Of a DNA stretch of 64,000 bases, positions 32,501 to 64,000 are shown piece after piece. The notes below the pieces were generated by a model. That model saw nothing but the letters and a program-made list of their open reading frames with translations. It searched no databases and was not told the origin of the DNA. Origin of the DNA: Rugalucina vietnamica (taxonomy: Eukaryota; Mollusca; Bivalvia; Lucinida; Lucinidae); contig OZ024872.1 in the NCBI GenBank assembly GCA_964017185.1, forward strand, positions 44,974,188 through 45,038,187, read 5' to 3'. A program made the position numbers and the translations under genes. Every line of letters starts with the position of its first letter. Positions within the stretch are counted from its first letter, which is position 1.

Positions 32501-32505
32501 AGGTC
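23558..32505 (+). repeat. 178-bp satellite, left arm, subfamily 1 (~50 monomers)
   Basis: Monomers repeat at 178 bp. Signature: AAGTTAGCAGTACGTATAGT, TTGGTCAAACTTAGGACTGG, ATCGTTCGCTCAGTTTTTGA and TGTTCGAGATAGCCGAC. Neighbouring monomers vary (CGACCCC/CGACGCC, ATGGACAG/ATGGGCAG), so homogenisation is weak. Phase-breaking events serve as markers: a 4-bp deletion near 26,372, a CATGTA insertion near 27,003 and a truncated monomer near 28,990. Open frames of 60-99 aa that recur every 178 or 356 bp are by-products of the repeat; 178 is not a multiple of three, so they shift frame at each monomer. Confidence 0.95.
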
Positions 32506-35500
32506 CGGACCAGTCCTAAGTTTGACCCAAATTTCATTAGTTTCAAAACTCTCTGACTATACGTACTGCTAACTTGAAAATGGCCCATTCTGCCCATATT
32601 GGGTATGGGGTCGGCTATTTCGAACTTCGATATCTAAAAAACTGAGCGAACGATTTTCTTTAAACTTGCCCAGTTTCAAGGTCCTGACCAGTCCTAAGTT
32701 TGACCCAAATTTCATTAGTTTCAAAACTCTCTGACTATACGTACTGCTAACTTGAAAATGGCCCATACTGCCCATATTGGGTATGGGCTCGGCTATTTCG
32801 AACTTCGATATCTCAAAAACTGAGCGAACGATTTTCTTTAAACTTGCCCACTTTCAAGGTCCTGACCAGTCCTAATTTTGACCCAAATTTCATTAGTTTC
32901 AAAACTTTCTGACTATACGTACTGCTAACTTGAAAATGGCCCATACTGCCCATATTGGGTATGGGGTCGGCTATTTCGTACTTCGATATCTCAAAAACTG
33001 AGCTAACGATTTTCTTTAAACTTGCCCAGTTTCAAGGTCCTGACCAGTCCTAAGTTTGACCCAAATTTCATTAGTTTCAAAACTCTCTGACTATACCTAC
33101 TGCTAACTTGAAAATGGCCCATACTGCCCATATTGTGTATGGGGTCGGCTATTTCGAACTTCGATATCTCGAAAACTGAGCGAACGATTTTCTTTAAACT
33201 TGCCCAGTTTCAAGGTCCTGACCAGTCCTAAGTTTGACCCAAATTTCATTAGTTTCAAAACTCTCTGACTATACGTACTGCTAACTTGAAAATGGCCCAT
33301 ACTGCCCATATTGGGTATGGGCTCGGCTATTTCGAACTTCGATATCTCGAAAACTGAGTGAACGATTTTCTTTAAACTTTCCCAGTTTCAAGGTCCTGAC
33401 CAGTCCTAAGTTTGACCTAAATTTCATTAGTTTCAAAACTCTCTGACTATACGTACTGCTAACTTGAAAATGGCCCATACTGCCCATATTGGGTATGGGG
33501 TCGGCTATTTCGAACTTCGATATCTCGAAAACTGAGCGAACGATTTTCTTTAAACTTGCCCAGTTTCAAGGTCCCGACCAGTCCTAAGTTTGACCAAAAT
33601 TTCATTAGTTTCAAAACTCTCTGACTATACGTACTGCTAACTTGAAAATGGCCCATACTGCCCATATTGGGTATGGGCTCGGCTATTTCGAACTTCGATA
33701 TCTCGAAAACTGAGCGAACGATTTTCTTTAAACTTGCCCAGTTTCAAGGTCCTGACCAGTCCTAAGTTTGACCCAAATTTCATTAGTTTCAAAACTCTCT
33801 GACTATACGTACTGCTAACTTGAATATGGCCCATACTGCCCATATTGGGTATGGGCTCGGCTATTTCGAACTTCGATATCTCGAAAACTGAGCTAACGAT
33901 TTTCTTTAAACTTGCCCAGTTTCAAGGTCCGGACCAGTCCTAAGTTTGACCAAAATTTCATTAGTTTCAAAACTCTCTGACAATTCCTACTGCTAACTTG
34001 AAAATGGCCCATACTGCCCATATTGGGTATGGGCTCGGCTATTTCGAACTTCGATATCTCAAAAACTGAGCGAACGATTTTCTTTCTCAAAAACTGAGCG
34101 AACGATTTTCTTTAAACTTGCCCAGTTTCAAGGTCCGGACCAGTCCTAAGTTTGACCCAAATTTCATTAGTTTCAAAACTCTCTGACTATACGTACTGCT
34201 AACTTGAAAATGGCCCATACTGCCCATATTGGGTATGGGCTTGGCTATTTCGAACTTCGATATCTCGAAAACTGAGCGAACGATTTTGTTTAAACTTGCC
34301 CAGTTTCAAGGTCCGGACCAGTCCTAAGTTTGACCCAAATTTCATTAGTTTCAAAACTCTCTGACTATACGTACTGCTAACTTGAAAATGGCCCATACTG
34401 CCCATATTGGGTATGGGCTCGGCTATTTCGAACTTCGATATCTCAAAAACTGAGCGAACGATTTTCTTTAAACTTGCCCAGTTTCAAGGTCCTGACCAGT
34501 CCTAAGTTTGACCCAAATTTCATTAGTTTCAAAAGTCTCTGACTATACGTACTGCTAACTTGAAAATGGCCCATACTGCCCATATTGGGTATGGGGTCGG
34601 CTATTTCGAACTTCGATATCTCGAAAACTGAGCGAACGATTTTCTTTAGACTTGCCCAGTTTCAAGGTCCTGACCAGTCCTAAGTTTGACCCAAATTTCA
34701 TTAGTTTCAAAACTCTCTGACTATACGTACTGCTAACTTGAAAATGGCCCAAACTGCCCATATTGGGTATGGGCTCGGCTATTTCGAACTTCGATATCTC
34801 AAAAACTGAGCGAACGATTTTCTTTAAACTTGTCCAGTTTCAAGGTCCGGACCAGTCCTAAGTTTGACCCAAATTTCATTAGTTTCAAAACTCTCTGACT
34901 ATACGTACTGCTAACTTGAAAATGGCCCATACTGCCCATATTGGGTATGGGCTTGGCTATTTCGAACTTCGATATCTCGAAAACTGAGCGAACGATTTTG
35001 TTTAAACTTGCCCAGTTTCAAGGTCCTGACCAGTCCTAAGTTTGACCCAAATTTCATTAGTTTCAAAACTCTCTGACTATACGTACTGCTAACTTGAAAA
35101 TGGCCCATACTGCCCATATTGGGTATGGGCTCGGCTATTTCGAACTTCGATATCTCAAAAACTGAGCGAACGATTTTCTTTAAACTTGCCCAGTTTCAAG
35201 GTCCTGACCAGTCCTAAGTTTGACCCAAATTTCATTAGTTTAAAAACTCTCTGACTATACGTACTGCTAACTTGAAAATGGCCCATACTGCCCATATTGG
35301 GTATGGGCTCGGCTATTTCGAACTTCGATATCTCGAAAACTGAGCGAACGATTTTCTTTAAACTTGCCCAGTTTCAAGGTCCTGACCAGTCCTAAGTTTG
35401 ACCCAAATTTCATTAGTTTCAAAACTCTATGACTATACGTACTGCTAACTTGAAAATGGCCCAAACTGCCCATATTGGGTATGGGCTCGGCTATTTCGAA

Positions 35501-38500
35501 CTTAGATATCTCGAAAACTGAGCGAACGATTTTCTTTAAACTTGCCCAGTTTCAAGGTCCTGACCAGTCCTAAGTTTGACTCAAATTTCATTAGTTTCAA
35601 ATCTCTCTGACTATACGTACTGCTAACTTGAAAATGGCCCATACTGCCCATATTGGGTATGGGCTCGGCTATTTCGAACTTAGATATCTCGAAAACTGAG
35701 CGAACGATTTTCTTTAAACTTGCCCAGTTTCAAGGTCCGGACAAGTCCTAAGTCTGACCCAAATTTCATTAATTTCAAAACTCTCTGACTATACCTACTG
35801 CTAACTTGAAAATGGCCCATACTGCCCATATTGGGTATGGGCTCGGCTATTTCGAACTTCGATATCTCGAGAACTGAGCGAACGATTTTCTTTAAACTTG
35901 CCCAGTTGCAAGGTCCTGACCAGTCCTAAGCTTGATCCAAATTTCATTAGTTTCAAAACTCTCTGACTATACGTACTGCTAACTTGAAAATGGCCCATAC
36001 TGCCCATATTGGGTATGGGCTCGGCTATTTCGAACTTCGATATCTCAAAAACTGAGCGAACGATTTTCTTTAAACTTGCCCAGTTTCAAGGTCCTGACCA
36101 GTCCTAAGTTTGACCCAAATTTCATTAGTTTCAAAACTCTCTGACTATACGTACTGCTGACTTGAAAATGGCCCATACTGCCCATATTGGGTATGGGGTC
36201 GGCTATTTCGAACTTCGATATCTCGACAACTGAGCGAACGATTTTCTTTAAACTTGCCCAGTTTCAAGGTCCGGACCAGTCCTAAGTTTGACCCAAATTT
36301 CATTAGTTTCAAAACTCTCTGACTATACGTACTGCTAACTTGAAAATGGCCCATACTGCCCATATTGGGTATGGGCTCGGCTATTTCGAACTTCGATATC
36401 TCGAAAACTGAGCGAACGATTTTCTTTAAACTTGCCCAGTTTCAAGGTCCTGACCAGTCCTAAGTTTGACCCAAATTTCATTAGTTTCAAAACTCTCTGA
36501 CTATACGTACTGCTAACTTGAAAATGGCCCATACTGCCCATATTGGGTATGGGCTCGGCTATTTCGAACTTCGATATCTCGAAAACTGAGCGAACGATTT
36601 TCTTTAAACTTGCCCAGTTTCAAGGTCCTGACCAGTCCTAAGTTTGACCCAAATTTCATTAGTTTCAAAACTCTCTGACTATACGTACTGCTAACTTGAA
36701 AATGGCCCATACTGCCCATATTGGGTATGGGGTCGGCTATTTCGAACTTCGATATCTCAAAAACTGAGCGAACGATTTTCTTTAAACTTGCCCAGTTTCA
36801 AGGTCCTGACCAGTCCTAAGTTTGACTCAAATTTCATTAGTTTCAAAACTCTCTGACTATACGTACTGCTAACTTGAAAATGGCCCATACTGCCCATATT
36901 GGGTATGGGCTCGGCTATTTCGAACTTCGATATCTCAAAAACTGAGCGAACGATTTTCTTTAAACTTGCCCAGTTTCAAGGTCCTGACCAGTCCTAAGTT
37001 TGACCCAAATCTTATTAGTTTCAAAACTCTCTGACTATACCTACTGCTAACTTGAAAATGGCCCATACTGCCCATATTGGGTATGGGCTCGGCTATTTCG
37101 AACTTCGATATCTCGAAAACTGAGCGAACGATTTTCTTTAAACTTGCCCAGTTTCAAGGTCCTGACCAGTCCTAAGTTTGACCCAAATTTCATTAGTTTC
37201 AAAACTCTCTGACTATACGTACTGCTAACTTGAAAATGGCCCATACTGCCCATATTGGGTATGGGGTCGGCTATTTCGAACTTCGATATCTCAAAAACTG
37301 AGCGAACGATTTTCTTTAAACTTGCCCAGTTTCAAGGTCCTGACCAGTCCTAAGTTTGACCCAAATTTCATTAGTTTCAAAACTCTCTGACTATACGTAC
37401 TGCTAACTTGAAAATGGCCCATACTGCCCATATTGGGTATGGGCTCGGCTATTTCGAACTTCGATATCTCAAAAACTGAGCGAACGATTTTCTTTAAACT
37501 TGCCCAGTTTCAAGGTCCTGACCAGTCCTAAGTTTGACCCAAATTTCATTAGTTTCAAAACTCTCTGACTATACGTACTGCTAACTTGAAAATGGCCCAT
37601 ACTGCCCATATTGGGTATGGGCTCGGCTATTTCGAACTTCGATATCTCGAAAACTGAGCTAACGATTTTCTTTAAACTTGCCCAGTTGCAAGGTCCGGAC
37701 CAGTCCTAAGTTTGACCCAAATTTCATTAGTTTCAAAACTCTCTGACTATACGTACTGCTAACTTGAAAATGGCCCATACTGCCCATATTGGGTATGGGC
37801 TCGGCTATTTCGAACTTCGATATCTCAAAAACTGAGCGAACGATTTTCTTTAAACTTGCCCACTTTCAAGGTCCTGACCAGTCCTAAGTTTGACCCAAAT
37901 TTCATTAGTTTCAAAACTCTCTGACTATACGTACTGCTAACTTGAAAATGGCCCATACTGCCCATATTGGGTATGGGGTCGGCTATTTCGAACTTTGATA
38001 TCTCAAAAACTGAGAGAGCGATTTTCTTTAAATTTGCCCAGTTTCAAGGTCCTGACCAGTCCTAAGTTTGATCCAAATTTCATTAGTTTCAAAACTCTCT
38101 GACTATACCTACTGCTAACTTGAAAATGGCCCATACTGCCCATATTGGGTATGGGGTCGGCTATTTCGAACTTCGATATCTCGAAAACTGAGCGAACGAT
38201 TTTCTTTAAACTTGCCCAGTTTCAAGGTCCTGACCAGTCCTAAGTTTGACCCAAATTTCATTAGTTTCAAAACTCTCTGACTATACGTACTGCTAACTTG
38301 AAAATGGCCCATACTGCCCATATTGGGTATGGGCTCGGCTATTTCGAACTTCGATATCTCGAAAACTGAGCGAACGGTTTTCTTTAAACTTGCCCAGTTT
38401 CAGGGTCCTGACCAGCCCTAAGTTTGACCCAAATTTCATTAGTTTCAAAACTCTCTGACTATACGTACTGCTAACTTGAAAATGGCCCATACTGCCCATA

Positions 38501-41500
38501 TTGGGTATGGGGTCGGCTATTTCGAACTTCGATATCTCGAAAACTGAGCAAACGATTTTCTTTAGACTTGCCCAGTTTCAAGGTCCGGACCAGTCCTAAG
38601 TTTGACCCAAATTTCATTAGTTTCAAAACTCTCTGACTATACGTACTGCTAACTTGAAAATGGCCCATACTGCCCATATTGGGTATGGGCTCGGCTATTT
38701 CGAACTTCGATATCTCGAAAACTGAGCGAACGATTTTCTTTAAACTTGCCCAGTTTCAAGGTCCTGACCAGTCCTAAGTTTGACCCAAATTTCATTAGTT
38801 TCAAAACTCTCTGACTATACGTACTGCTAACTTGAAAATGGCCCATACTGCCCATATTGGGTATGGGCTCGGCTATTTCGAACTTCGATATCTCGAAAAC
38901 TGAGCGAACGATTTTCTTTAAACTTGCCCAGTTTCAAGGTCCTGACCAGTCCTAAGTTTGATCCAAATTTCATTAGTTTCAAAACTCTCTGACTATACGT
39001 ACTGCTAACTTGAAAATGGCCCATACTGCCCATATTGGGTATGGGCTCGGCTATTTCGAACTTCGATATCTCAAAAACTGAGCGAACGATTTTCTTTAAA
39101 CTTGCCCAGTTTCAAGGTCCTGACCAGTCCTAAGTTTGACCCAAATTTCATTAGTTTCAAAACTCTCTGACTATACGTACTGCTAACTTGAAAATGGCCC
39201 ATACTGCCCATATTGGGTATGGGGTCGGCTATTTCGAACTTCGATATCTCGAAAACTGAGCGAACGATTTTCTTTAGACTTGCCCAGTTTCAAGGTCCTG
39301 ACCAGTCCTAAGTTTGACCCAAATTTCATTAGTTTCAAAACTCTCTGACTATACGTACTGCTAACTTGAAAATGGCCCAAACTGCCCATATTGGGTATGG
39401 GCTCGGCTATTTCGAACTTCGATATCTCAAAAACTGAGCGAACGATTTTCTTTAAACTTGCCCAGTTTCAAGGTCCGGACCAGTCCTAAGTTTGACCCAA
39501 ATTTCATTAGTTTCAAAACTCTCTGACTATACGTACTGCTAACTTGAAAATGGCCCATACTGCCCATATTGGGTATGGGCTCGGCTATTTCGAACTTCGA
39601 TATCTCGAAAACTGAGCGAACGATTTTCTTTAAACTTGCCCAGTTTCAAGGTCCTGACCAGTCCTAAGTTTGACCCAAATTTCATTAGTTTCAAAACTCT
39701 CTGACTATACGTACTGCTAACTTGAAAATGGCCCAAACTGCCCATATTGGGTATGGGCTCGGCTATTTCGAACTTCGATATCTCAAAAACTGAGCGAACG
39801 ATTTTCTTTAAACTTGCCCAGTTTCAAGGTCCTGACCAGTCCTAAGTTTGACCCAAATCTTATTAGTTTCAAAACTCTCTGACTATACCTACTGCTAACT
39901 TGAAAATGGCCCATACTGCCCATATTGGGTATGGGCTCGGCTATTTCGAACTTCGATATCTCGAAAACTGAGCGAACGATTTTCTTTAAACTTGCCCAGT
40001 TTCAAGGTCCTGACCAGTCCTAAGTTTGACCCAAATTTCATTAGTTTCAAAACTCTCTGACTATACGTACTGCTAACTTGAAAATGGCCCATACTGCCCA
40101 TATTGGGTATGGGGTCGGCTATTTCGAACTTCGATATCTCAAAAACTGAGCGAACGATTTTCTTTAAACTTGCCCAGTTTCAAGGTCCTGACCAGTCCTA
40201 AGTTTGACCCAAATTTCATTAGTTTCAAAACTCTCTGACTATACGTACTGCTAACTTGAAAATGGCCCATACTGCCCATATTGGGTATGGGCTCGGCTAT
40301 TTCGAACTTCGATATCTCAAAAACTGAGCGAACGATTTTCTTTAAACTTGCCCAGTTTCAAGGTCCTGACCAGTCCTAAGTTTGACCCAAATTTCATTAG
40401 TTTCAAAACTCTCTGACTATACGTACTGCTAACTTGAAAATGGCCCATACTGCCCATATTGGGTATGGGCTCGGCTATTTCGAACTTCGATATCTCGAAA
40501 ACTGAGCTAACGATTTTCTTTAAACTTGCCCAGTTGCAAGGTCCGGACCAGTCCTAAGTTTGACCCAAATTTCATTAGTTTCAAAACTCTCTGACTATAC
40601 GTACTGCTAACTTGAAAATGGCCCATACTGCCCATATTGGGTATGGGCTCGGCTATTTCGAACTTCGATATCTCAAAAACTGAGCGAACGATTTTCTTTA
40701 AACTTGCCCACTTTCAAGGTCCTGACCAGTCCTAAGTTTGACCCAAATTTCATTAGTTTCAAAACTCTCTGACTATACGTACTGCTAACTTGAAAATGGC
40801 CCATACTGCCCATATTGGGTATGGGGTCGGCTATTTCGAACTTTGATATCTCAAAAACTGAGAGAGCGATTTTCTTTAAATTTGCCCAGTTTCAAGGTCC
40901 TGACCAGTCCTAAGTTTGATCCAAATTTCATTAGTTTCAAAACTCTCTGACTATACCTACTGCTAACTTGAAAATGGCCCATACTGCCCATATTGGGTAT
41001 GGGGTCGGCTATTTCGAACTTCGATATCTCGAAAACTGAGCGAACGATTTTCTTTAAACTTGCCCAGTTTCAAGGTCCTGACCAGTCCTAAGTTTGACCC
41101 AAATTTCATTAGTTTCAAAACTCTCTGACTATACGTACTGCTAACTTGAAAATGGCCCATACTGCCCATATTGGGTATGGGCTCGGCTATTTCGAACTTC
41201 GATATCTCGAAAACTGAGCGAACGGTTTTCTTTAAACTTGCCCAGTTTCAGGGTCCTGACCAGCCCTAAGTTTGACCCAAATTTCATTAGTTTCAAAACT
41301 CTCTGACTATACGTACTGCTAACTTGAAAATGGCCCATACTGCCCATATTGGGTATGGGGTCGGCTATTTCGAACTTCGATATCTCGAAAACTGAGCAAA
41401 CGATTTTCTTTAGACTTGCCCAGTTTCAAGGTCCGGACCAGTCCTAAGTTTGACCCAAATTTCATTAGTTTCAAAACTCTCTGACTATACGTACTGCTAA

Positions 41501-44500
41501 CTTGAAAATGGCCCATACTGCCCATATTGGGTATGGGCTCGGCTATTTCGAACTTCGATATCTCGAAAACTGAGCGAACGATTTTCTTTAAACTTGCCCA
41601 GTTTCAAGGTCCTGACCAGTCCTAAGTTTGACCCAAATTTCATTAGTTTCAAAACTCTCTGACTATACGTACTGCTAACTTGAAAATGGCCCATACTGCC
41701 CATATTGGGTATGGGCTCGGCTATTTCGAACTTCGATATCTCGAAAACTGAGCGAACGATTTTCTTTAAACTTGCCCAGTTTCAAGGTCCTGACCAGTCC
41801 TAAGTTTGATCCAAATTTCATTAGTTTCAAAACTCTCTGACTATACGTACTGCTAACTTGAAAATGGCCCATACTGCCCATATTGGGTATGGGCTCGGCT
41901 ATTTCGAACTTCGATATCTCAAAAACTGAGCGAACGATTTTCTTTAAACTTGCCCAGTTTCAAGGTCCTGACCAGTCCTAAGTTTGACCCAAATTTCATT
42001 AGTTTCAAAACTCTCTGACTATACGTACTGCTAACTTGAAAATGGCCCATACTGCCCATATTGGGTATGGGGTCGGCTATTTCGAACTTCGATATCTCGA
42101 AAACTGAGCGAACGATTTTCTTTAGACTTGCCCAGTTTCAAGGTCCTGACCAGTCCTAAGTTTGACCCAAATTTCATTAGTTTCAAAACTCTCTGACTAT
42201 ACGTACTGCTAACTTGAAAATGGCCCAAACTGCCCATATTGGGTATGGGCTCGGCTATTTCGAACTTCGATATCTCAAAAACTGAGCGAACGATTTTCTT
42301 TAAACTTGCCCAGTTTCAAGGTCCGGACCAGTCCTAAGTTTGACCCAAATTTCATTAGTTTCAAAACTCTCTGACTATACGTACTGCTAACTTGAAAATG
42401 GCCCATACTGCCCATATTGGGTATGGGCTCGGCTATTTCGAACTTCGATATCTCGAAAACTGAGCGAACGATTTTCTTTAAACTTGCCCAGTTTCAAGGT
42501 CCTGACCAGTCCTAAGTTTGACCCAAATTTCATTAGTTTCAAAACTCTCTGACTATACGTACTGCTAACTTGAAAATGGCCCAAACTGCCCATATTGGGT
42601 ATGGGCTCGGCTATTTCGAACTTCGATATCTCAAAAACTGAGCGAACGATTTTCTTTAAACTTGCCCAGTTTCAAGGTCCTGACCAGTCCTAAGTTTGAC
42701 CCAAATCTTATTAGTTTCAAAACTCTCTGACTATACCTACTGCTAACTTGAAAATGGCCCATACTGCCCATATTGGGTATGGGCTCGGCTATTTCGAACT
42801 TCGATATCTCGAAAACTGAGCGAACGATTTTCTTTAAACTTGCCCAGTTTCAAGGTCCTGACCAGTCCTAAGTTTGACCCAAATTTCATTAGTTTCAAAA
42901 CTCTCTGACTATACGTACTGCTAACTTGAAAATGGCCCATACTGCCCATATTGGGTATGGGGTCGGCTATTTCGAACTTCGATATCTCAAAAACTGAGCG
43001 AACGATTTTCTTTAAACTTGCCCAGTTTCAAGGTCCTGACCAGTCCTAAGTTTGACCCAAATTTCATTAGTTTCAAAACTCTCTGACTATACGTACTGCT
43101 AACTTGAAAATGGCCCATACTGCCCATATTGGGTATGGGCTCGGCTATTTCGAACTTCGATATCTCAAAAACTGAGCGAACGATTTTCTTTAAACTTGCC
43201 CAGTTTCAAGGTCCTGACCAGTCCTAAGTTTGACCCAAATTTCATTAGTTTCAAAACTCTCTGACTATACGTACTGCTAACTTGAAAATGGCCCATACTG
43301 CCCATATTGGGTATGGGCTCGGCTATTTCGAACTTCGATATCTCGAAAACTGAGCTAACGATTTTCTTTAAACTTGCCCAGTTGCAAGGTCCGGACCAGT
43401 CCTAAGTTTGACCCAAATTTCATTAGTTTCAAAACTCTCTGACTATACGTACTGCTAACTTGAAAATGGCCCATACTGCCCATATTGGGTATGGGCTCGG
43501 CTATTTCGAACTTCGATATCTCAAAAACTGAGCGAACGATTTTCTTTAAACTTGCCCACTTTCAAGGTCCTGACCAGTCCTAAGTTTGACCCAAATTTCA
43601 TTAGTTTCAAAACTCTCTGACTATACGTACTGCTAACTTGAAAATGGCCCATACTGCCCATATTGGGTATGGGGTCGGCTATTTCGAACTTTGATATCTC
43701 AAAAACTGAGAGAGCGATTTTCTTTAAATTTGCCCAGTTTCAAGGTCCTGACCAGTCCTAAGTTTGATCCAAATTTCATTAGTTTCAAAACTCTCTGACT
43801 ATACCTACTGCTAACTTGAAAATGGCCCATACTGCCCATATTGGGTATGGGGTCGGCTATTTCGAACTTCGATATCTCGAAAACTGAGCGAACGATTTTC
43901 TTTAAACTTGCCCAGTTTCAAGGTCCTGACCAGTCCTAAGTTTGACCCAAATTTCATTAGTTTCAAAACTCTCTGACTATACGTACTGCTAACTTGAAAA
44001 TGGCCCATACTGCCCATATTGGGTATGGGCTCGGCTATTTCGAACTTCGATATCTCGAAAACTGAGCGAACGGTTTTCTTTAAACTTGCCCAGTTTCAGG
44101 GTCCTGACCAGCCCTAAGTTTGACCCAAATTTCATTAGTTTCAAAACTCTCTGACTATACGTACTGCTAACTTGAAAATGGCCCATACTGCCCATATTGG
44201 GTATGGGGTCGGCTATTTCGAACTTCGATATCTCGAAAACTGAGCAAACGATTTTCTTTAGACTTGCCCAGTTTCAAGGTCCGGACCAGTCCTAAGTTTG
44301 ACCCAAATTTCATTAGTTTCAAAACTCTCTGACTATACGTACTGCTAACTTGAAAATGGCCCATACTGCCCATATTGGGTATGGGCTCGGCTATTTCGAA
44401 CTTCGATATCTCGAAAACTGAGCGAACGATTTTCTTTAAACTTGCCCAGTTTCAAGGTCCTGACCAGTCCTAAGTTTGACCCAAATTTCATTAGTTTCAA

Positions 44501-44990
44501 AACTCTCTGACTATACGTACTGCTAACTTGAAAATGGCCCATACTGCCCATATTGGGTATGGGCTCGGCTATTTCGAACTTCGATATCTCGAAAACTGAG
44601 CGAACGATTTTCTTTAAACTTGCCCAGTTTCAAGGTCCTGACCAGTCCTAAGTTTGATCCAAATTTCATTAGTTTCAAAACTCTCTGACTATACGTACTG
44701 CTAACTTGAAAATGGCCCATACTGCCCATATTGGGTATGGGCTCGGCTATTTCGAACTTCGATATCTCAAAAACTGAGCGAACGATTTTCTTTAAACTTG
44801 CCCAGTTTCAAGGTCCTGACCAGTCCTAAGTTTGACCCAAATTTCATTAGTTTCAAAACTCTCTGACTATACGTACTGCTAACTTGAAAATGGCCCATAC
44901 TGCCCATATTGGGTATGGGCTCGGCTATTTCGAACTTCGATATCTCGAAAACTGAGCGAACGATTTTCTTTATTCAAGGTCCTGACCAGT
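32506..44990 (-). repeat. 178-bp satellite, right arm, subfamily 2 (~70 monomers)
   Basis: Same monomer in the opposite orientation, but a different subfamily. In minus orientation it has AAGTTCGAAATAGCCGA(G/C)CCC in place of TGTTCGAGATAGCCGACGCC, TTTGGGTCAAACTTAGG in place of TTTTGGTCAAAC, and GGGCAAGTTTAAAG in place of GGGCGAGTTTAAAG. The orientation switch is abrupt at GCTCAG/GTCCGGACCAGTCC. A 31-bp internal duplication lies at ~34,078-34,110. The array decays at 44,971-45,075 with a 25-bp micro-repeat. Confidence 0.95.
36892..44971 (-). repeat. 2,848-bp higher-order repeat (16 monomers), ~2.84 copies
   Basis: Private variants recur at exactly 2,848 bp. TGAGAGAGCGATTTTC occurs at 38,011, 40,859 and 43,707. 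AAATCTTATTAGTTTC occurs near 37,009, 39,857 and 42,705. The GCGAACGGTTTTC plus CAGCCCTAAG pair occurs at ~38,370, ~41,218 and ~44,066. 2,848 equals 16 x 178. The period fails upstream of ~36,892, where GCCCATACTG on one side faces GCCCAAACTG in the next copy. I saw no difference between copies at the positions checked. Confidence 0.92.
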
Positions 44991-45289
44991 CCTAAGTTTG
45001 ACCCAAATTTTATTAGTTTCAAAACTCATCTGGCCCATAGTTTCAAAACTCATCTGGCCCATAGTTTCAAAGCTATCTGAAAATGGCCTTTTTTTGTTTT
45101 TGTATCAAAAGTTTGTAAAATAAACGTTCCCCTGTTGAGTGCAGTATGTATTTATATTTGAGTTTTCGAATTTGTACAATCGAGGATGGCCACTTCGAAG
45201 AAAACGCTGCCCTTTATTTGACAACGCTATATTTTACTTTGTTCAACGATACATGTTTTATATTTCTATCTAAATCGAACCATTGATGA

Positions 45290-48727: not shown

Positions 48728-51495
48728 ATGGCTGCTGGGGGATTTTGTAAGTATTGAATAAGATTTTATCTCATGACGTTCGTGTATTTTGTATCGATTA
48801 AGCATTATACCGACAACGTGACATGGCAAATAACTTTTGATTCAGCTGATTATATACTATACCTCGGATCCAAAATATTATTTGATCCGAGATTATACAG
48901 AATGATGACCAGATGATAAGAGGCCACATGGGTCGCATTTTGAGAAAACGGTCAAGTCATCGGCCTGGAAGGACACAAATATTTTAAACATATTTTATTG
49001 AACATCTCACAAATTACAGCGATACATACATGTACATATAAATAGGTAAATTACGAAAAGGATTAGAACGGAAGCAAAGCTTATAGAGTTCGTCTCAGCT
49101 CAAATAGGACAATGCATGCATCGAACAATTAGAAGCTTGAATGTTTGATGTAAAGTAAATATGTATTGTCTAGATAGCGGAAACAAATTTAATAATGCAC
49201 TTAATCGTGTATTTTGTTTTCGTATATGCACGACAGTTCTCTTAAAATGAATCTCATAATTATTCTCTAGATTTTTCCTCTCATTCAGGTTCCAGTGTTA
49301 TACCATCAAGTGAGGAATTGCAATTGGGCCGGTATAATACAATATCGCTACAGTTGTATGAAGTGTTGGAAAATGTTGGTTTGTCTAATGAGATGAGAAG
49401 AATTGGAGCCGAACTTGCAAGCGCACGAGAAATACTTTCGACGTTAGATCTGGGACTACATGTATCTGTTCATAACTTCGGTAGTCGTAGTGAATGTTCA
49501 ACAATACCAGGAACTGAGTCCGATATCGACTGTGTGGCAATCCCTCCAGACATGCGATTGGTAACAAATGTAGCTGATTGTCACGATTCCGACGGATTCC
49601 TACTGGTACCAGATAGACATCCTGGTTATGCTAGGTTACAGGTCATAGTGAAAGGCCAACCTGTAACAAAACATAATGTTGATTTAATGCAGAAGATGCA
49701 AAATATACCAAAATTATATCAGTTTCAAAATGACAAAGTAAACAGAATTTGTCTAACAAGTGATTGGCTTCAATGCAACTATGCTGTTATTCACAGACAA
49801 GGACCGGCAATGAACATCCAAGGTACTGATACCAGAACATCGCGAGATATTGTATTTGCACTGAAGTGTGACACCTGGCCAGACTGTGCAAGAGAATGGC
49901 TGACAAGAGAAAGACAACACGGTTGGCCGTCAGATGAAGTCATTGACAAATGTAGATCAATGGGTTTCTTAGTGGTGCAAGTCGGGCATCCAGACAGTGA
50001 TGAACCAGACATACAATGGAGAGTCTCGCTTTCTCACCAAGAGCTACTCCTAGTGAGAGGCTTCAATTCGGTACAAATGAAGTGTTATGTTCTTCTGAAA
50101 TGTATAAAGAAGGATTACATTCAGCTCCATATAAAGGAGGAAACGCTGTCATCGTACCATTGTAAAACTTGCATGTTCTACTGTATAGAGAATACACCGG
50201 CTCAGCTCTGGGTACCAGAGAATCTTGCAGGTTGTCTCCTTATGTGTCTGAGACAGCTTATGGTGTGGGTATCTAACGACAATTGTCCTAATTACTTCAT
50301 CCCTGATGAGAATATGTTCGACAGGATACGAGATGACAAACTGAAAAAACAACTGTTGGTCGTTTTGCACATTCTGTTATTCTGTTATGACATTCTATTG
50401 AACAATCTGCATCAAAGAATGATCACTGTTTCCGATCAGCTGCGTGAAAAGTGTAAATCAAAACAATTTTTAGATTATGATTTAAAAGAAGTCTCTACAT
50501 GTAAAATAATTGATTCTGAGGAAGCACGTTTGAAACAGTATGTGAACGATTTAATTGCCACTATTAGAATGACTGAATTACTTATGCCACTTATGCGAGA
50601 TAGGATCATGTTTTTTGCCCGATGTCTCGACAGCCACAAACAGTTTATAGACGTTGACAAACTACAAGCCGAAATATCGCGGCTGGAACAGACAACTGTA
50701 GTAACAAATCACACAGAGAAACAATCCAAGGAGGCGATAACACTAATACTTCCTTTCCTTCAACTAAGTGTGTTATCGCTCAGTGTTGTGGACGTTTATG
50801 AAAAAGGAAAAGACGAACTTCATAAGATTCTGGAAACTTCGAAATGGGCTGAACTGGATATTATGACTGGAATTGCAAAACTGAAACAAGCTTGTGCATT
50901 GTTCATGTTAGGGAGCGCTGCCAAGTCTTTGGAGATATTGAGGCATGTTGTACAGAGGCAATACCCGATCTGTGGTTGTTATGATAATCTCCTAGGCCTA
51001 CCAGACTCCCCGTTTACAATTACTGGTGTACCATATCAAGGATTGAATAGAATGGTTAAAAAGCTGTTGGCTACAGTTTATCAGCCTTGTGTGATTTTCT
51101 TACCAAATGAATATCGCATTTCTCCTGTGGCTTTAAATTATGAAATGATACGAGCATACGGTAGAGCACCGCTCCATGCAGATAACTGGGTGTTCAAAGA
51201 CTGGTGTAACTGGGGAGTTGTTGAGGGATTTTTTCTGACTCATTTCCTAATATACATGAATGCAAAAGCTTTAAGACAGTCGTCTTTGGCTAGGGAAGCT
51301 CTCAAGAACATGATCAGTCATTGTAACAACAAGATCCCTTACCACTTAGACACCAGTTACAACCTGCTAGGCTGGGTATTCAAAGAAAGAGGCGATGTAG
51401 CTAGAGCAGTGGAATGTTTCCAGAAGTCATTGAGAGTGGAGCCAGTGTTTAATGCAGCATATTGGCATTTATGCTTCTTAATTTGTCGCTATTAA
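48728..51495 (+). CDS. Mab-21 domain / cGAS-like receptor with C-terminal TPR
   Basis: Two coding exons: 48,728-48,746 (MAAGGF plus one base) and 49,289-51,495, giving 741 aa. The donor TTTT|GTAAGT and acceptor TCTCATTCAG|GT restore a Cys codon in frame (MAAGGFCSSVIPSS...). Reading from the exon-2 frame alone would need a TTG start, so I prefer the spliced ATG. A second acceptor (TTTGTTTCAG, 48,674) before the ATG suggests an upstream 5' UTR exon. The Mab-21/cGAS nucleotidyltransferase motif is visible: GS at residues 71-72, E83-S-D85-I-D87, and a third Asp at 193 in RDIVFALKCDTWP, aligning with VDITLALE...WP of cGAS. All three metal-binding acids are present. Later conserved blocks are SSYHCKT (~294-300) and NYFIP (341-345). 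A TPR-like hairpin (LLGWVFKERGDVARAVECFQ) sits near 699-718. The cGAS zinc-thumb pattern is not evident. By family, cGLRs bind nucleic acid and make cyclic dinucleotides for STING; activity here is inference. It is alone and convergent with the dynein gene. Confidence 0.85.
48747..49288 (+). other. intron 1 of the Mab-21-like gene
   Basis: It begins GTAAGTATTG and ends with the pyrimidine-rich TTTTTCCTCTCATTCAG. The length is 542 bp. No repeat or second exon is recognised inside. Confidence 0.7.
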
Positions 51496-51834
51496 ATGAG
51501 CCACATCGTGAGAAAACCGGATTTTTGCCTATGCGAAAACAAAGGTGCAGATCAGCTTCGCAGTAACTCTCAAGAAGATGATCCGCATTTGTAACAACAA
51601 GATCCCTTACCACTTAGACACCAGTTACAACCTGCTAGGCTGGGTATTCAAAGACAGAGGCGATATAGCTAGAGCAGTGGAATGTTTCCAGAAGTCATTG
51701 AGAGTGGAGCCAGTGTTTAATGCAGCATATTGGCATTTATGCTTCTTAATTTGTGGCTATTAAATGAGCCGCATCGTGAGAAAACCGGATTTTTGCCTAT
51801 GCGAAAACAAAGGTGTAGATCAGCTTCGCAGTAG
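51299..51834 (+). repeat. 268-bp tandem duplication spanning the gene's 3' end
   Basis: CTCTCAAGAA starts at 51,299 and 51,567. Each copy runs from the last coding stretch through the stop codon and the left half of a downstream palindromic MITE. Copies differ mainly at their first 25 bp (CATGATCAGTCATTG versus GATGATCCGCATTTG) and at a few sites later. Confidence 0.9.
51567..51763 (+). pseudogene. duplicated C-terminal fragment of the Mab-21-like gene
   Basis: It encodes the TPR-containing last ~60 residues (NNKIPYHLDTSYNLLGWVFK...), ending CFLICGY instead of CFLICRY, with its own TAA. Near-identity to 51,299-51,495 shows recent duplication. There is no upstream NTase domain and no acceptor site that would obviously make it an alternative last exon, so I call it a fragment. 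Confidence 0.75.
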
Positions 51835-57441: not shown

Positions 57442-60400
57442 CTAAAATTTAAAAGTAAGCAATGATCAGAAACTGGTGCAGTCAAAAACATGACCCAATC
57501 TAATGACTTGGATGGGGAAACAAATAAAAAGTTTACTGACTAAACTACTGATACAAAGTGTACATATGAAAAGGCCAATATAGCAGCTATTTCCTCCAAA
57601 GGCAGCCTCTCAGTTACCTGAACTTAGTATGTATATGACTAGGTATGTATATGACTAGTCTGACGGGTCAGCCATCAAAATACGTTTTTGATACCAGAGT
57701 GTTTATCATTTCAACGTCTGACTTCCATTGAAGAAATCCCAAGTCACTGATGATTACAGTGCAAGCTGTTTTTTAGACATTGATTTTATTCTTATTGGTC
57801 CATGGCTGGTTGATGAGGACATTTTAGAGTCAATCACAAGTTTTCAGTTAGATTTATCTCCCCTCTTGAGGTGACATTTTTGAAGAGATTTCCTTTTAAA
57901 AAAACAACAACAAAAAAAAACATCAAAATAAACAGAATTTGGATATATTTTATGAATTTTCAAACGGAGGTGTGTTTATTATTTTGTTTTACAGTGTAGT
58001 GTATGACAAGACTTGCTTTATATAAAACTTATTATTCTGTAAATAATGGCTGTCAACCATAAATGGTTGACAGCTTGTTTATGGTTGACAGCTTGTTCTT
58101 TTGTAAATGTCCTGGAGTCAGACAGCAAAATGAACCAGTGGGTATAATACTTTCATTTTGACGGCTGACTAGAACATATGAATAACCACATAAAAGGCAC
58201 AAGCAACCCCAAAATAGACACAAAAACAAACAAAACTGCAACAGAGTACCACCTTGGAACAGTCAGAAATATGAAACCACAGGTTGGGCTTTAACCAACT
58301 TTACAGACGGCTAACCTAGCCATTTAACAGCATCTGCAGTGGTTGGCAACATTTAGTAGTTTGTTCACCATGATGAATCTTTAGACTAGTCAATGAATCG
58401 TCATGGGGGAACACAAATTATGATACGCAGACATAACATACCACATGGCAACTGGTGAGCAAGCCTGTACTAGATCACAGATTATTTATTTACACCTATT
58501 TTAATGGTGATTTAACTTCTTAATTGAAGCTTATCTGTATTGGTTTGAAGCTTACCTATATTTGGTTTGAAGCTTACCTGTGTTGGTTTCAAGCCTATCT
58601 GTACTGGTTTAAAGCTTACCTGCACTGGTTTAAAGCTTATCTGTACTGGTTTGAAGCTTACCTGCACTGGTTTGAAGTGTATTTCAGGCAGTTTCGAGAA
58701 CCTCTGACCTGACAGTGAGTCACTAAGACAACCAGCAGTGGGTTCCCATCTGGCCCCATCTAGGTAAAGGCCAAATATCATGACTCCATCTTCTGGGGGC
58801 TTCTGACGCTGTTATAGGAGAAAGATAAAATAGGATTTCATTGATTATTATTGAATAAATACCTGTGTCACACAATATTTGCAAGCATATATTAATGAAG
58901 TCAAAAGCTGTGTATTAATGAGGTAATTCACATAAGCATGTGCTATTAATACTCATCTTTTATTTATGCTCGGTAGCCGGCGCCACGCAAAACACATGCT
59001 AACATTAACAATCGCAATGTCCCTTGGGTAGTGTTGAAACTCTCTGGCTGCACTCTCAGTTTTCACCACTTCCCTCGGGACCTAGCAAAAGTTACTGAAC
59101 AGAAAATCATGTTTGATTCCTCTATTGGTACAGGTATTTGGGCAAAAAAATGCCCTTACTTTTTTGGTTATACAAACAGAATTGACTAAGATCATTACAT
59201 TTGCACAATTCAAACTTTATATATCCTATTTAAGAACAAATTGAAGCATTAAAACCATTTATTATATGGCAAGTGATGAAATATAGAGAAATATGTATTT
59301 AATATAACCAGTATTTGAAAAAGTTATATTTTCACATGTGAAAATATAAAAAATAATATATTTTCACATGTGAAAATATAAGATTTGGGAATACGCAAAT
59401 TACGATTCCACCGTTTCATTTCTAATTTATACATAACTAAATTTATAATCTATGCTATTGTTGACGCAATGAACGTTCACACACAATAGCGACGTAATGA
59501 CGTGACGTCATGACGTCATTTAAGATTTTGACGTCATAAGCTTTAGCGCGCAACGTTACAATGACTACATGCAATATAATAAAAAGAAAATTCAAGTTTT
59601 TGTCGTGAATATGACTTTTATTTCATCTCGTGAAGTGAAAAATTATATATTTCATTCGTGCCTTCGGCACTCATGAAATATAAAAAGTTTTCACTTCACT
59701 CAATGAAATAAAACTCATATTCACTCCAAAAACTTGAATATCCTCTATTTATCTCACCTTAAATGCAGCTTCTTTTATGACAATTTTCTGTTTGAGATCA
59801 CTAAGAGATTCCACAGTATCTGCAGGACTGCTGACAATTTCAAACTTGAAGTGTAAGGAGTCCACTGAGATACCCATCTTTCTGGCATGACTCTGTAGTA
59901 CTCCTGTCAGGAAACCTGTGGACAGAAAAAAAATAAAGAAAGGTTTACATTTTAATACAACGAAACAATCTTTCAATGTAAAACGAGATATACGTTTTAT
60001 CTCTAACCAGATCAAACACAATTAGACAAAATTATGGACACAATGTAAAATTTACATTTTTCAGATATATCTGTGCGAAAGAATATAAAGTTCAGTCAAT
60101 AAAAAAAAAAGAAAAGAAATGAGCCCCTGCATCAGAAAACCAACAATCTGCATTTAGAAAACAAAGACACAGATCGGCCTTACTGCAGGGCTGATCTGCG
60201 CCTCTGTTTTTGCTCCTAAGATAGTACAATGTCTCTTCCTCCTAAATCTGAAATTTCAAGCTTCTAGCTTCTATGGATGTTCAGCCTGGTTTGTGAATGA
60301 CCTTGTCGAAAACTTAGATTGTTTTTGGTTTTTTCATGTGATGGCTCAAATGGTGTGTGCTCCATATGAAGCTTGAATGTTAATCAAACTGAACTGAATA

Positions 60401-63400
60401 GTTACCTTGCGGGAAGAAGAATCCTGACAGCCAGTAACTATTGGGTGTGCTCCTGGGCTCATCATCCGTTTCCGCAACCTCGATCAGTGATGCCTTTATC
60501 GCCATGACAGGCTTCATGAGTTTCTCTACACTACTGACAATCAGCTCGCCCCACTGGGCAAAGAAGTCCACTCGCATAAACAAGTTGTTTACCCAGGAAC
60601 CAAGGGACTTCCGAGATTCATAGGCAGCACTCTGAAAATGGTGGTTTGATTTCTTTGATTCATTTTACTGATTTATGGCTATGGTCAATAGTTCATGTTG
60701 AAACTGTCAATTATCCTAACCACAATCTTCCCGGAAATTTAGGCATTAAAGAGGAAGATTACCAGTACTTAGTGTATATTTTATTGATCACTAACTGACA
60801 AATGCACATTTAGAATCACATCAGATGAAAAATGGCCATAGAACTTTTATGCCCAAATCATGCGCGGATCCAGAGGGGGGGGACCGGGGGTCCGGACCCC
60901 CCCTTGAATTTGAAAATTTTACCTAAAAAAAGGTAATTTCGGGATTTTTTGAGGGTTGGACCCCCCCCTCGTCTGTGACCAAAAATTACCATTTTCGTTG
61001 GACCCCCTCTCATGAAAATTTCTGGATCCGCGCATGCAAATCTTCATGAAAGACATATCAGACAGTCTGTTAATGGTTTTAGATAATAATTATTAACTGA
61101 GCATTGAAAACAGATGCAGTAGGCTAGATAATGGTATTTTATGATAATTGACAATTTCTACTATATATAGACAAGGTCTTATAGAATAATCCATCTCACA
61201 GATGCAGTATAAAGATCATGATTCTATGTAAAGTATCGTTTACTGGCATATCTAACAGATCCATTCTTTTACCAAAACCAGATGTTACACAGGTTATCAC
61301 CACATCTGAATATGTTAAGTTGAGTGATGACACGCCAAATGACAATATTTCACTGGGGGGTGGGGGGGGAGAAATCATTCCCTAGAGCGCACAAGCAAAG
61401 CAAACTTGGACACACAATCATCTGAAATTTCAGCTGTGGAAAAAAGAGTCAAGGAGGTCGATCCAGTGTCTGATAGTCTTAAAGAAGTAGTCTGACCAGA
61501 ATGCACACTCAAACAATAGCTTAACCATAAAGATGAATAGTTACATTTTAAAACTTTTAAATACCAAGAAATCTGAGTTTTGCCATGTGGCCATCAGTAA
61601 AGCAGCAGTTGTGAGATAACTGCAAAGCTCATAACATTAATATGTACGAGGTTCGTCCCAAAAGTTCCATTACACTCACTGTTTTGCCAAATTTACAGCA
61701 TGTGACAGCTTACAACATTTATGGTCACCAAATACCATATCTTAGGGCTTTGGGGGCAAATTTTCGTACAGCTATGTGTATTTGTTAAAACGCAGTGGAG
61801 GTTTGAGCCATTGAGAAATTTAAAGTTACTTTCCTGATGAAGGCCTAGTGCCGAAAATTTGAAATAGAGTGAAAAATTACCCTAGTATAAAAACGCAGTG
61901 GAGGTTGTTATGTATGACAGTTACTTGTTGAAAGATGTGCATTCAGGACTGGTAAACTTCCCAAGGGAGTATGCCCAGGAAAGTATGATGTTATACATAT
62001 GATGTTTACTTGTTGTCCTTAGCAATTATTTACTTTTAGTGTCCCAGATATTGGACATAAACAGGTTGTTTACTTCAGAATTTTCTAGAAATTTCAAATT
62101 GTTCTTTGACGGAAAAGTCCGGAAAAATCTGGAAGAACCAAAGATGTAGAATCTTCTAGAAAAAATTTTTTTTATGTCAAAAGAATATTGTGGAATTTTC
62201 TGGAAGGATAATGGCCTCTCTAGAATATTCCAAAACATTAAATTTTGGTAAACAACTTGTTATTTTTAGTATATGATATCATAGAATTTGCTGGAAGAAT
62301 CCTGAATGTTCCTCAGTGCTATATAAGGGCTACAAATTTTCATAAGGACAATCTTTGGGTACTGTTACTATTAAGAAGTCAAAATCTATCTTACTGGAAT
62401 TTAAACTTATTCTTGGATTACTTTGTGATATTCGATTCTGGATTGGGACATAGTGCTATTTTGAAACAAACTTTAATTCTTGGGATCAGAAACTGATACA
62501 GACTTGTGTTAAAAAATTCTGAGGGACATTCAGACATTCTTTAAGGGAATTAACATCTTGAAAGGTATTGTACATTCATTTTTGTTTGATTGTATATATG
62601 CTTTTGATTGTTTCACATGTAATTACTGGTTAAATCACTTCTAAATAGATTTGTTAAATTTTAAACAAAGCTTGTTGCTGGCTAACCAACTTGTTGGTTT
62701 CCTTAATCTTCTAGTTACGCCTGGCACGTAACAAGGTTTGAACCATTGTATCCCTACTGCACAGGAGCAGGTCTAATGACGTCGTTAATTGTGATTTTTT
62801 TTCTTAATATTTTGCAATTTGGATAAATACACAACAATCAAAACATCTATTTGAAAATTAGATTTATGTAAAGCTAAATGATTCTGTAGTATATATTTGG
62901 AAATCAAAGTAAAACATTTATAAGCAAAACGTCAAAATAATACTTGCGAATTAAGAATAATTAACTAAATGCTATCAACTGTTAACCACTTTCCATGTTT
63001 AAGTAATATTTCTGTTAGCTGAAATATCTTTTTAAAAATAGGTGTTGTGTAATAGTATTGAGGGAAGCTAAACAGTTGTTTGGTTTCCATCAAAGAACAC
63101 ATTTTAGACATTTAAATATAACAACCCTGTATTTTTGCTCCGCACATTTTCGCTGACGTCGTAATTTTGTCGATGATTTTTATAGGTATGCTTCTTTATC
63201 TGTCTCCCAAACTATCGAATCATTCCCAAATTTTTATAATATTATCACTAAAAGGTGCTGATAGAATGGTTGTTAGGCTGGTATATTTTCTAAATGATCA
63301 CATTATACCAATGTTGATTTAGCAGATTGCGAAAAATAGAAGTTCTGAAAACATTTTGCATAGTATGACCTGCTCCGGTCATGCCTGCTCATGGTTACTT

Positions 63401-63938
63401 AGGTAACTATAGCAGTTAGGCTATTGAAGTGAGTATAATGTTGTACAGTTAAATAAGTTCCAATATGGTCAATTATTCGGCATGAGTAACTTTGGTTAGT
63501 TCCTTCTATGCATTCAGAATAAAATGCATGTGTAACGGGACTTTTGGGACAAGCCACATACTTTCACATTTTATACATTTTTTTTGTTTACAACCGCTCT
63601 GCAATGTAAAATTTATGCTTCTACCCATTTTCTGGGACTGCACAGCTCCATTTGCATCTGATATGGTCAAATGGTCAGAAACCTAGTAGACATACAATGT
63701 ATAGTGGTTAGCTAAAAGAATCTAACCTTCCATTTCTGTGGGACTTTCTGGTTCAATATGGCATTATATGCCTCTTCTAGCGGTTCTGACATGATAACTT
63801 CCCCTTTGATGGCCAAGATAAGTTCCTTCAGTGACATCTCAATGACCGATAGAAGGTTATTGTAGCGATCTATTTCTTGTCTCAGAACTGTGATGAGGGC
63901 CGAGTCGCTCATGACGCTGTCTACTGCAGCTTGTAGTA
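57211..63938 (-). CDS. axonemal dynein heavy chain, C-terminal five exons (5' partial)
   Basis: Five minus-strand exons splice in one frame: 63,727-63,938; 60,406-60,631; 59,758-59,915; 58,662-58,808; 57,211-57,441 (stop TGA at 57,211-57,213). All junctions are GT-AG. Together they encode ~323 residues of the dynein C-terminal domain. Family signatures appear in order: [114 protein letters not shown] and [12 protein letters not shown], the usual dynein ending. FFFPQGFLTG and the CPLYRT block fit axonemal rather than cytoplasmic chains. I cannot fix the DNAH paralogue. The product is the ATP-driven motor of ciliary/flagellar inner or outer arms. An extra ~35-40 residues sit between FFAQW and YWLSG where most dyneins have ~10. 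The motor head and everything N-terminal lie beyond the right edge. Confidence 0.93.
57442..58661 (-). other. dynein intron between exons d and e
   Basis: It holds a copy of the dispersed GATCAG family (57,460-57,625), a short palindrome GGCTGTCAACCATAAATGGT (~58,047) followed by a direct repeat of TTTATGGTTGACAGC, sequence related to the 3971-4070 block at 58,330-58,400, and the donor minisatellite at its 5' end. Confidence 0.6.
58524..58682 (-). repeat. 21-bp minisatellite covering the exon d donor
   Basis: In minus orientation the unit is GTAAGCTTTAAACCAGTGCA plus G, repeated about six times from the exon end into the intron. CAG|GTAAGC-type donors occur with exon ends at 58,662, 58,620 and 58,578, plus a TATAG|GTAAGC at 58,556. 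Alternating units carry ATAAGC or ATAGGC in place of GTAAGC and so lack the GT. Spacing between intact donors is 42, 42 and 22 bp. The first two steps preserve frame and would each add 14 residues ([14 protein letters not shown] for the first). Confidence 0.88.
58662..58808 (-). CDS. dynein exon d, with multiplied splice donor
   Basis: Acceptor CTCCTATAACAG|CGTCAG; the first donor is GTGCAG|GTAAGC. It encodes [20 protein letters not shown] to PEIHFKPVQ (49 codons, both ends in phase 0). The exon's last 18 bp and its donor are repeated downstream (58,524-58,661), so the frame runs on uninterrupted if a later donor is used. Confidence 0.9.
59325..59380. repeat. two identical 24-bp perfect palindromes
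   Basis: The palindrome centred on TTTTCACATGTGAAAA occupies 59,325-59,348 and again 59,357-59,380, joined by an AT spacer. It may form part of one palindromic MITE with the 59,591-59,738 hairpin. Confidence 0.75.
59503..59536. promoter_or_regulatory. three perfect CRE-type octamers TGACGTCA
   Basis: TGACGTCA occurs at 59,503-59,510, 59,511-59,518 and 59,529-59,536, with GACGTAATGACG just before. CREB/ATF family factors bind this octamer. It lies in an intron and in probable MITE sequence, so function is inference. Confidence 0.5.
59591..59738. repeat. 148-bp hairpin 19 nt inside the dynein intron
   Basis: The arms TTCAAGTTTTTGTCGTGAAT ... ATTCACTCCAAAAACTTGAA are centred on GTGCCTTCGGCAC (~59,665). 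On the transcript it starts 19 nt after the exon c donor, close enough to affect U1 access. Confidence 0.7.
59758..59915 (-). CDS. dynein exon c
   Basis: Acceptor TTCTGTCCACAG|GTTTCC; donor TTTAAG|GTGAGA. It completes a Gly codon and encodes [20 protein letters not shown] and the following segment to EAAFK, ending in phase 0. Confidence 0.92.
60120..60350 (+). repeat. palindromic MITE, diverged copy (intron between exons b and c)
   Basis: GAAAACAAAGACACAGATCG and GCTGATCTGCGCCTCTGTTT form the hairpin. The following block matches 51,877-52,000. Confidence 0.65.
60406..60631 (-). CDS. dynein exon b
   Basis: Acceptor CCATTTTCAG|AGTGCT; donor CCGCAAG|GTAACT. It encodes [20 protein letters not shown] through [11 protein letters not shown] plus one base. 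It includes the family-atypical insert containing [20 protein letters not shown]. Confidence 0.9.
60860..61036. mobile_element. 177-bp MITE with GGATCCGCGC termini and CAAATC target duplication
   Basis: The terminal inverted repeats ATGCGCGGATCCAGA (60,860-60,874) and TCTGGATCCGCGCAT are perfect, apart from a terminal G that precedes the right duplication. CAAATC flanks both sides (60,854-60,859; 61,037-61,042). The interior has long G and C runs (GGGGGGGGACC ... GGACCCCCCCC) that are themselves complementary. Confidence 0.75.
62078..62311 (+). promoter_or_regulatory. heat-shock element (HSF-binding) cluster
   Basis: Inverted GAA/TTC pentamers at strict 5-bp pitch occur in six arrays. 62,078-62,095 is a perfect four-unit site, GAAttTTCtaGAAatTTC. 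62,112-62,134 has GAA-gtc-GAA-atc-GAA. 62,149-62,161 is a perfect three-unit site. 62,183-62,205 has five units with one mismatch. 62,223-62,230 has GAAtaTTC. 62,284-62,311 has six units, four of them perfect. The HSF consensus is three or more alternating nGAAn units. By chance, the perfect four-unit site alone is expected about 0.01 times in this window. Confidence 0.65.
62320..62327 (+). promoter_or_regulatory. TATA box downstream of the HSE cluster
   Basis: CTATATAAGGGC contains TATATAAG, nine bases past the last HSE unit and in the orientation expected for a plus-strand transcript starting near 62,350. An 83-codon frame at 62,245-62,496 overlaps it but begins upstream of the TATA and has no recognisable domain. 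Confidence 0.5.
62350..63529 (+). other. region downstream of the putative heat-shock promoter, no gene recognised
   Basis: AT-rich with no conserved frame, splice-like exon or RNA fold that I recognise. If the promoter is real, the transcript would be noncoding and antisense to the dynein intron. Confidence 0.3.
63727..63938 (-). CDS. dynein exon a (first visible)
   Basis: Acceptor TTTTATTTCCAG|TACTAC; donor TGGAAG|GTTAGA. It starts with two bases of a split codon, then [20 protein letters not shown] and onward, and ends in phase 0 after KVPQKWK. An internal Met at codon 9 is not a start; the frame is open through the acceptor. Confidence 0.9.
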
Positions 63939-64000
63939 CTGGAAATAAAACTAAGTCTTGTAACTTTATAACTTTAAAGGAGATGGCAGAATTTCTGACC

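Follow-up and report, generated by a model that had tools for sequence, protein, structure and literature searches.

Six GAA/TTC arrays lie within about 235 bp (positions 62,078-62,311) of the 64-kb window, that is, of the whole stretch of 64,000 nucleotides analysed, within an intron of a gene for a cilia motor protein. They come from a mechanical count of units, their clustering is far beyond chance, and a TATA box stands downstream of them at promoter distance. Judging from the letters of the DNA, we think that the cluster is most likely a working or recently working HSF-driven promoter. Our leading reading, tentative and given slightly less than an even chance, is that of an HSF-responsive promoter module, which would most likely be part of an hsp-type promoter that came to lie in an old non-autonomous TIR element and would give a short noncoding RNA at most.

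HSE arrays and promoter layout

Across the six arrays 20 of the 25 units are exact, in register at a 5-bp pitch. One array is a perfect four-unit, one a perfect three-unit, and a five-unit array contains a perfect three-unit run, while the remaining ones are a perfect two-unit array and two arrays with broken units. Taking an HSE as at least three contiguous alternating nGAAn/nTTCn units, the cluster has one perfect series of four units and two perfect series of three; GAAnnTCCnnGGA, a stricter form in the literature, has no match in the 64-kb window. All six arrays begin with GAA. The arrays and the features that follow them are:

62078-62095, no strand: HSE array 1, GAA-TTC-GAA-TTC, 4/4 units exact
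62112-62134, no strand: HSE array 2, GAA-gTC-GAA-aTC-GAA, 3/5 exact, with GAA at 10-bp pitch
62149-62161, no strand: HSE array 3, GAA-TTC-GAA, 3/3 exact
62183-62205, no strand: HSE array 4, GAA-TTg-GAA-TTC-GAA, 4/5 exact, with the perfect three-unit run at 62193-62205
62223-62230, no strand: HSE array 5, GAA-TTC, 2/2 exact
62284-62311, no strand: HSE array 6, GAA-TgC-GAA-aTC-GAA-TTC, 4/6 exact, adjoining the TATA box
62320-62327, plus strand: TATATAAG, a TATA-type core promoter motif, 8 bp past the last TTC of array 6
62350, plus strand: predicted start of transcription, placed from the position of the TATA box at about 30 bp beyond it
62350-63540, plus strand: putative noncoding transcript region, with no recognisable coding content
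63518-63523, plus strand: AATAAA, a possible polyadenylation signal that may be chance, the only plus-strand AATAAA in 61601-63620

Low-complexity sequence or mere chance would be the simplest way to explain such a cluster, and the 70% A+T of the region speaks for it, but the spacing of the units makes this scarcely credible. Perfect runs of at least three units number five in the 64 kb, and three of these, at 62078, 62149 and 62193, belong to the cluster. Between 62073 and 62322 there are nine pairs of opposite units at pitch 5, where the other pitches in the range 3-15 give 0 to 3 each, and nine pairs of the same unit at pitch 10, against 0 to 4 at other pitches; the enrichment falls on pitch 5 and on multiples of it. 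In 5,000 dinucleotide shuffles of this segment the count never rose to nine pairs (the maximum was 5) or to three runs, and none of the 32 rows given by Tandem Repeats Finder falls in the HSE stretch. When up to one mismatch is allowed, 13 of the 40 three-unit sites in the 64 kb start within the 250 bp of the cluster, and when the window is divided into 2,550 overlapping segments of 250 bp, the starts of the 15 densest all fall between 61851 and 62201.

The base that precedes GAA played no part in finding the arrays and therefore offers a second test. It is a purine in 18 of the 20 exact units, against 36% of the 2,676 units that the window has overall (P 9e-7), 49% of 1,573 units outside tandem arrays (P 1.6e-4) and 57% of 108 units in the same intron (P 1.8e-3); the test relies on the last two backgrounds and not on the whole-window one. 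A stands there in 10 of the 20 units, which is not significant (P 0.06 outside tandem arrays, 0.17 in the same intron), and G, which is counted as a favoured base before GAA, in eight (P 0.02 and 0.04, respectively). The flanking bias favours purines, A and G jointly, and not A, which is unenriched when taken alone, so that HSF sites are supported only in part by this test. The available portion of a Drosophila study (PMC2871787) cites AGAAN as the revised HSE unit and gives TTC as the first unit in 236 of 393 HSEs and GAA in 157. The lack of enrichment of A alone, together with the GAA-first order of all six arrays, takes some weight from an HSF promoter and adds it to a dead promoter fragment, which is discussed below.

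Around arrays 1-5 there are also three 7-mers that we take to be forkhead/FOXO-type sites, TGTTTAC at 62003 and 62067 and GTAAACA at 62248 (span 62003-62254, 252 bp). The trio was spotted post hoc, and 14 such 7-mers are present in the 64 kb when both strands are counted. Those at 62067 and 62248 are part of an inverted repeat of 14 bp on either side of arrays 1-5.

A TATA-type motif by itself is not rare, as TATATAAG occurs three times on each strand of the 64 kb and TATAWAR sites number 51 on the plus strand and 55 on the minus strand; hence, it is the position after array 6 that counts. Downstream, eight chosen translations of the element, rather than all six frames, gave no Pfam match above cut-off (three were sub-threshold, with E 0.03 to 0.21). 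The longest plus-strand ATG ORF in 62350-63540 has 49 aa, and 211 of 500 shuffles have one at least as long. Neither these translations nor the plus-strand ORFs contain a recognisable heat-shock coding sequence, and any product would consequently be noncoding on these tests. The predicted fold of the 62350-63340 RNA is no better than that of its shuffles (z -0.46, with 6 of 20 at least as stable), and no Rfam family reaches its gathering score in the 64-kb window. The first-pass annotation had proposed six HSE arrays at an exact 5-bp pitch, arranged with a TATA box as in an inducible hsp promoter and followed by no heat-shock gene, and the three parts of this description hold up: the cluster is real, with broken units in three of its six arrays, TATATAAG comes 8 bp after it, and what follows is devoid of Pfam matches above cut-off in the chosen translations and has ORFs of shuffle-like length.

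Under heat stress, HSF1 trimers would bind the six arrays cooperatively and, once bound, would recruit polymerase to the TATA box. A plus-strand transcript without recognisable coding content would then start near 62,350, and it could end near the AATAAA at 63,518. Action in the opposite direction is also possible, since HSEs are symmetric. The presumed transcript includes two copies of TGACGTCGT, at 62777 and 63154, as well as an inverted 13-bp pair, ACAGGAGCAGGTC/GACCTGCTCCGGT (92% complementary), at 62761 and 63367.

Host intron and candidate TIR element

The surroundings of the cluster can be described by the following features:

63727-63945, minus strand: DNAH6-like dynein heavy chain exon, identified by PDB match, its 5' part not delimited
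60632-63726, minus strand: dynein intron of 3.1 kb that encloses the whole 61645-63560 stretch, boundaries by eye
60406-60631, minus strand: next DNAH6-like exon, boundaries by eye, identified as the following part of the same protein
61645-61675, plus strand: putative left TIR, a TA target dinucleotide and then a 29-bp end
63530-63560, minus strand: putative right TIR with TA, pairing with the left end

The minus-strand translation of 63735-63945 has dynein axonemal heavy chain 6 as its best PDB match (E 4.2e-11). The exon at 60406-60631 is weak on its own (best E 0.028), and motif matches place further minus-strand dynein exons near 58.7 and 57.3 kb. The TATA box, being on the plus strand, is oriented against the DNAH6-like gene, which agrees with the earlier placement of the promoter inside a dynein intron and antisense to that gene. 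A 21-bp tandem repeat (7.3 copies, 58524-58677) lies beside or within a DNAH6-like exon and corresponds to in-frame protein repeats of 14 residues. Elsewhere in the window, a 178-bp satellite occupies 23561-45032 as two head-on arrays, with about 50 copies pointing one way (23561-32502) followed by about 70 pointing the other way (32501-45032); the two arrays are about 92% alike across the inversion. An open frame of 749 codons at 49246-51495 encodes two domains, Mab-21 nucleotidyltransferase and Mab-21_C, and its 3' end overlaps a 268-bp tandem duplication (51299-51833, 96% matching). Matches to TPR below the threshold lie nearby, a combination that would fit a bivalve host.

The two putative TIR ends are alike at 23 of 29 bp (79%) and have TA outside both, a result that one of 200 shuffles ties; among TA-flanked 29-bp inverted pairs in 61001-64000, the one at 61645/63560 is the best. 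From the ends plus TA, a TIR-bounded element of about 1.9 kb is moderately supported. We take the end sequence to be mariner-like, a label that is drawn from the 61645/63560 ends and from no other part of the element. A literature search gave no paper in which the core end motif occurs alongside "mariner" and "transposase", and Pfam and PDB searches of chosen pieces of the element gave no transposase; nor is there a Rep-helicase match among the eight chosen translations. A mariner N-terminus near 61,795-61,870 was considered and dropped, because the match VEV*AIEKF, obtained with a mariner N-terminal query that Pfam recognises, has an ordinary alignment score of 24, which 394 of 596 window segments reach or surpass, as do 68 of 320 with frameshifts allowed. 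Thus, what stands of the TIR element first proposed is the pair of ends with TA, and not a mariner ancestry by way of a transposase remnant, for which nothing rose above chance. Given ends and TA of the expected kind and no transposase, membership in Tc1/mariner is not established.

Within the 64-kb window the element has no second copy. Phage and plasmid collections gave no match at E 1e-5, and two end patterns gave none in viral contigs, collections that are not informative on dispersed copies. Fifteen pattern matches in viral contigs yielded no confirmed mariner relative for comparison, and one end-pattern match, on a Prevotellaceae contig among genome contigs equally uninformative on dispersed copies, was judged to be chance. 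The left part of the element also contains an exact 17-bp direct repeat (61787-61803 and 61890-61906, starts 103 bp apart).

Origin and competing readings

The simplest source of an HSF-responsive module at this place would be an hsp-type promoter that was copied into a non-autonomous TIR element. It is the promoter layout that suggests this capture step, since no similarity to hsp genes is found downstream. A closely related possibility is that of a dead promoter fragment, an hsp 5' region copied here and now inactive, in which the arrays survive through the short time elapsed. We consider this unlikely, but it deserves the most serious attention among the alternatives: no recognisable coding sequence comes after the promoter, five of the 25 units are broken and the putative TIR ends differ at six of 29 positions, all of which speak for it, against the 20 units that are still exact. 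The quality of the arrays does not decide between a dead promoter and a working one, because imperfect units are also present in working hsp promoters. Alternatively, the cluster might belong to the host, either as a nested heat-inducible noncoding RNA gene or as an HSF-bound intronic enhancer, in which case the TIR pair would be a coincidence or an unrelated relic. This seems to us rather improbable. It would agree with the moderate evidence for the TIRs, the undetected transposase and the single copy in the 64-kb window, and HSF1 drives enhancer RNAs and lncRNAs in mammals according to the available part of PMC9032817; against it, the ends are TA-flanked and rank first among pairs of this kind in the 3 kb.

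The HSE stretch could also be another mobile element nested in the TIR element, for example a solo LTR with ONSEN-like HSF sites, and HSE plus TATA is indeed the layout of a heat-responsive LTR. Some TG...CA spans with flanking repeats of 4-6 bp are present, but their numbers (9, 1 and 3 for 4-, 5- and 6-bp repeats) are about those expected by chance in our own estimate, made without shuffles, and in none of seven candidate pairs for a nested TIR element does the flanking repeat exceed 3 bp, so we give this origin very little credence. Returning to the hsp-type promoter piece in an old TIR element, a bolder version would be that the element carries a complete captured promoter and has spread genome-wide as a mobile heat-inducible cassette, through which genes like this axonemal dynein would gain alternative starts or heat-responsive noncoding transcripts. 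We regard this version as distinctly doubtful. If it were true, another animal lineage would provide an independent case, that of a TIR DNA transposon bearing an entire hsp-type promoter, and heat-driven rewiring of gene expression could be tested by copy counts; if the element were a single intronic relic, it would be a curiosity.

Comparison with known systems

The cluster resembles inducible hsp70-type promoters of Drosophila, scallop and abalone, in the available parts of the respective papers, in having several HSEs upstream of a TATA box, and it is AT-rich as that of scallop. HSEs in Drosophila usually stand no more than 400 bp from the start site (PMC2871787), the scallop hsp70 promoter has 67% A+T and seven HSEs over about 1 kb, one of them aGAAttTTCc (PMC4100766), and in abalone hsp70 the TATA box lies at -27 to -32 and five HSEs are predicted (PMC6337134). 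Unlike these promoters, the cluster is followed by no recognisable hsp coding sequence and lies on the opposite strand within the intron of an unrelated gene. It is also packed into 235 bp, in contrast to the spread of the scallop HSEs given in the excerpt of PMC4100766, and every array is GAA-first, which is the rarer order in Drosophila as far as the accessible text of PMC2871787 goes.

HSF sites borne by transposable elements are of a kind already known, of which the dynein-intron case would be a further member. ONSEN is a copia retrotransposon of Arabidopsis with a heat-responsive promoter; the present proposal also puts such a promoter in a mobile element, but LTR structure and retrotransposon coding sequence were not found here. 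Tc1/mariner elements and their non-autonomous derivatives have a TA target site and TIRs of about 29 bp. The candidate element shares the TA target site and ends of about 29 bp, and it differs in its noncoding interior of about 1.9 kb, in which no transposase was detected. A literature search restricted to titles and the beginnings of abstracts, among the matches listed and with most subscription papers outside, gave no molluscan transposon with HSEs. In a follow-up to PMC6927752, transposable elements of C. elegans, Tc1/mariner included, hold binding motifs for many factors (PMC8896005, available in part), and mammals have noncoding RNAs whose transcription from repeats is driven by HSF1, as stated in the accessible section of PMC9032817. 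The closest parallel in kind is offered by Caenorhabditis Helitrons, beside which ONSEN is named in the available text of PMC6927752; they bear clusters of HSEs, and genes whose HSEs come from a Helitron join the heat-shock response. According to the same text, HSE enrichment in Helitrons is found in only three Caenorhabditis species among the compared UCSC genomes (PMC6927752). The candidate element differs from these Helitrons in its TA-flanked TIR ends and in being known as one copy, from its sequence alone, and it shares with them the HSE clusters, whose carriage by a transposable element is here a proposal.
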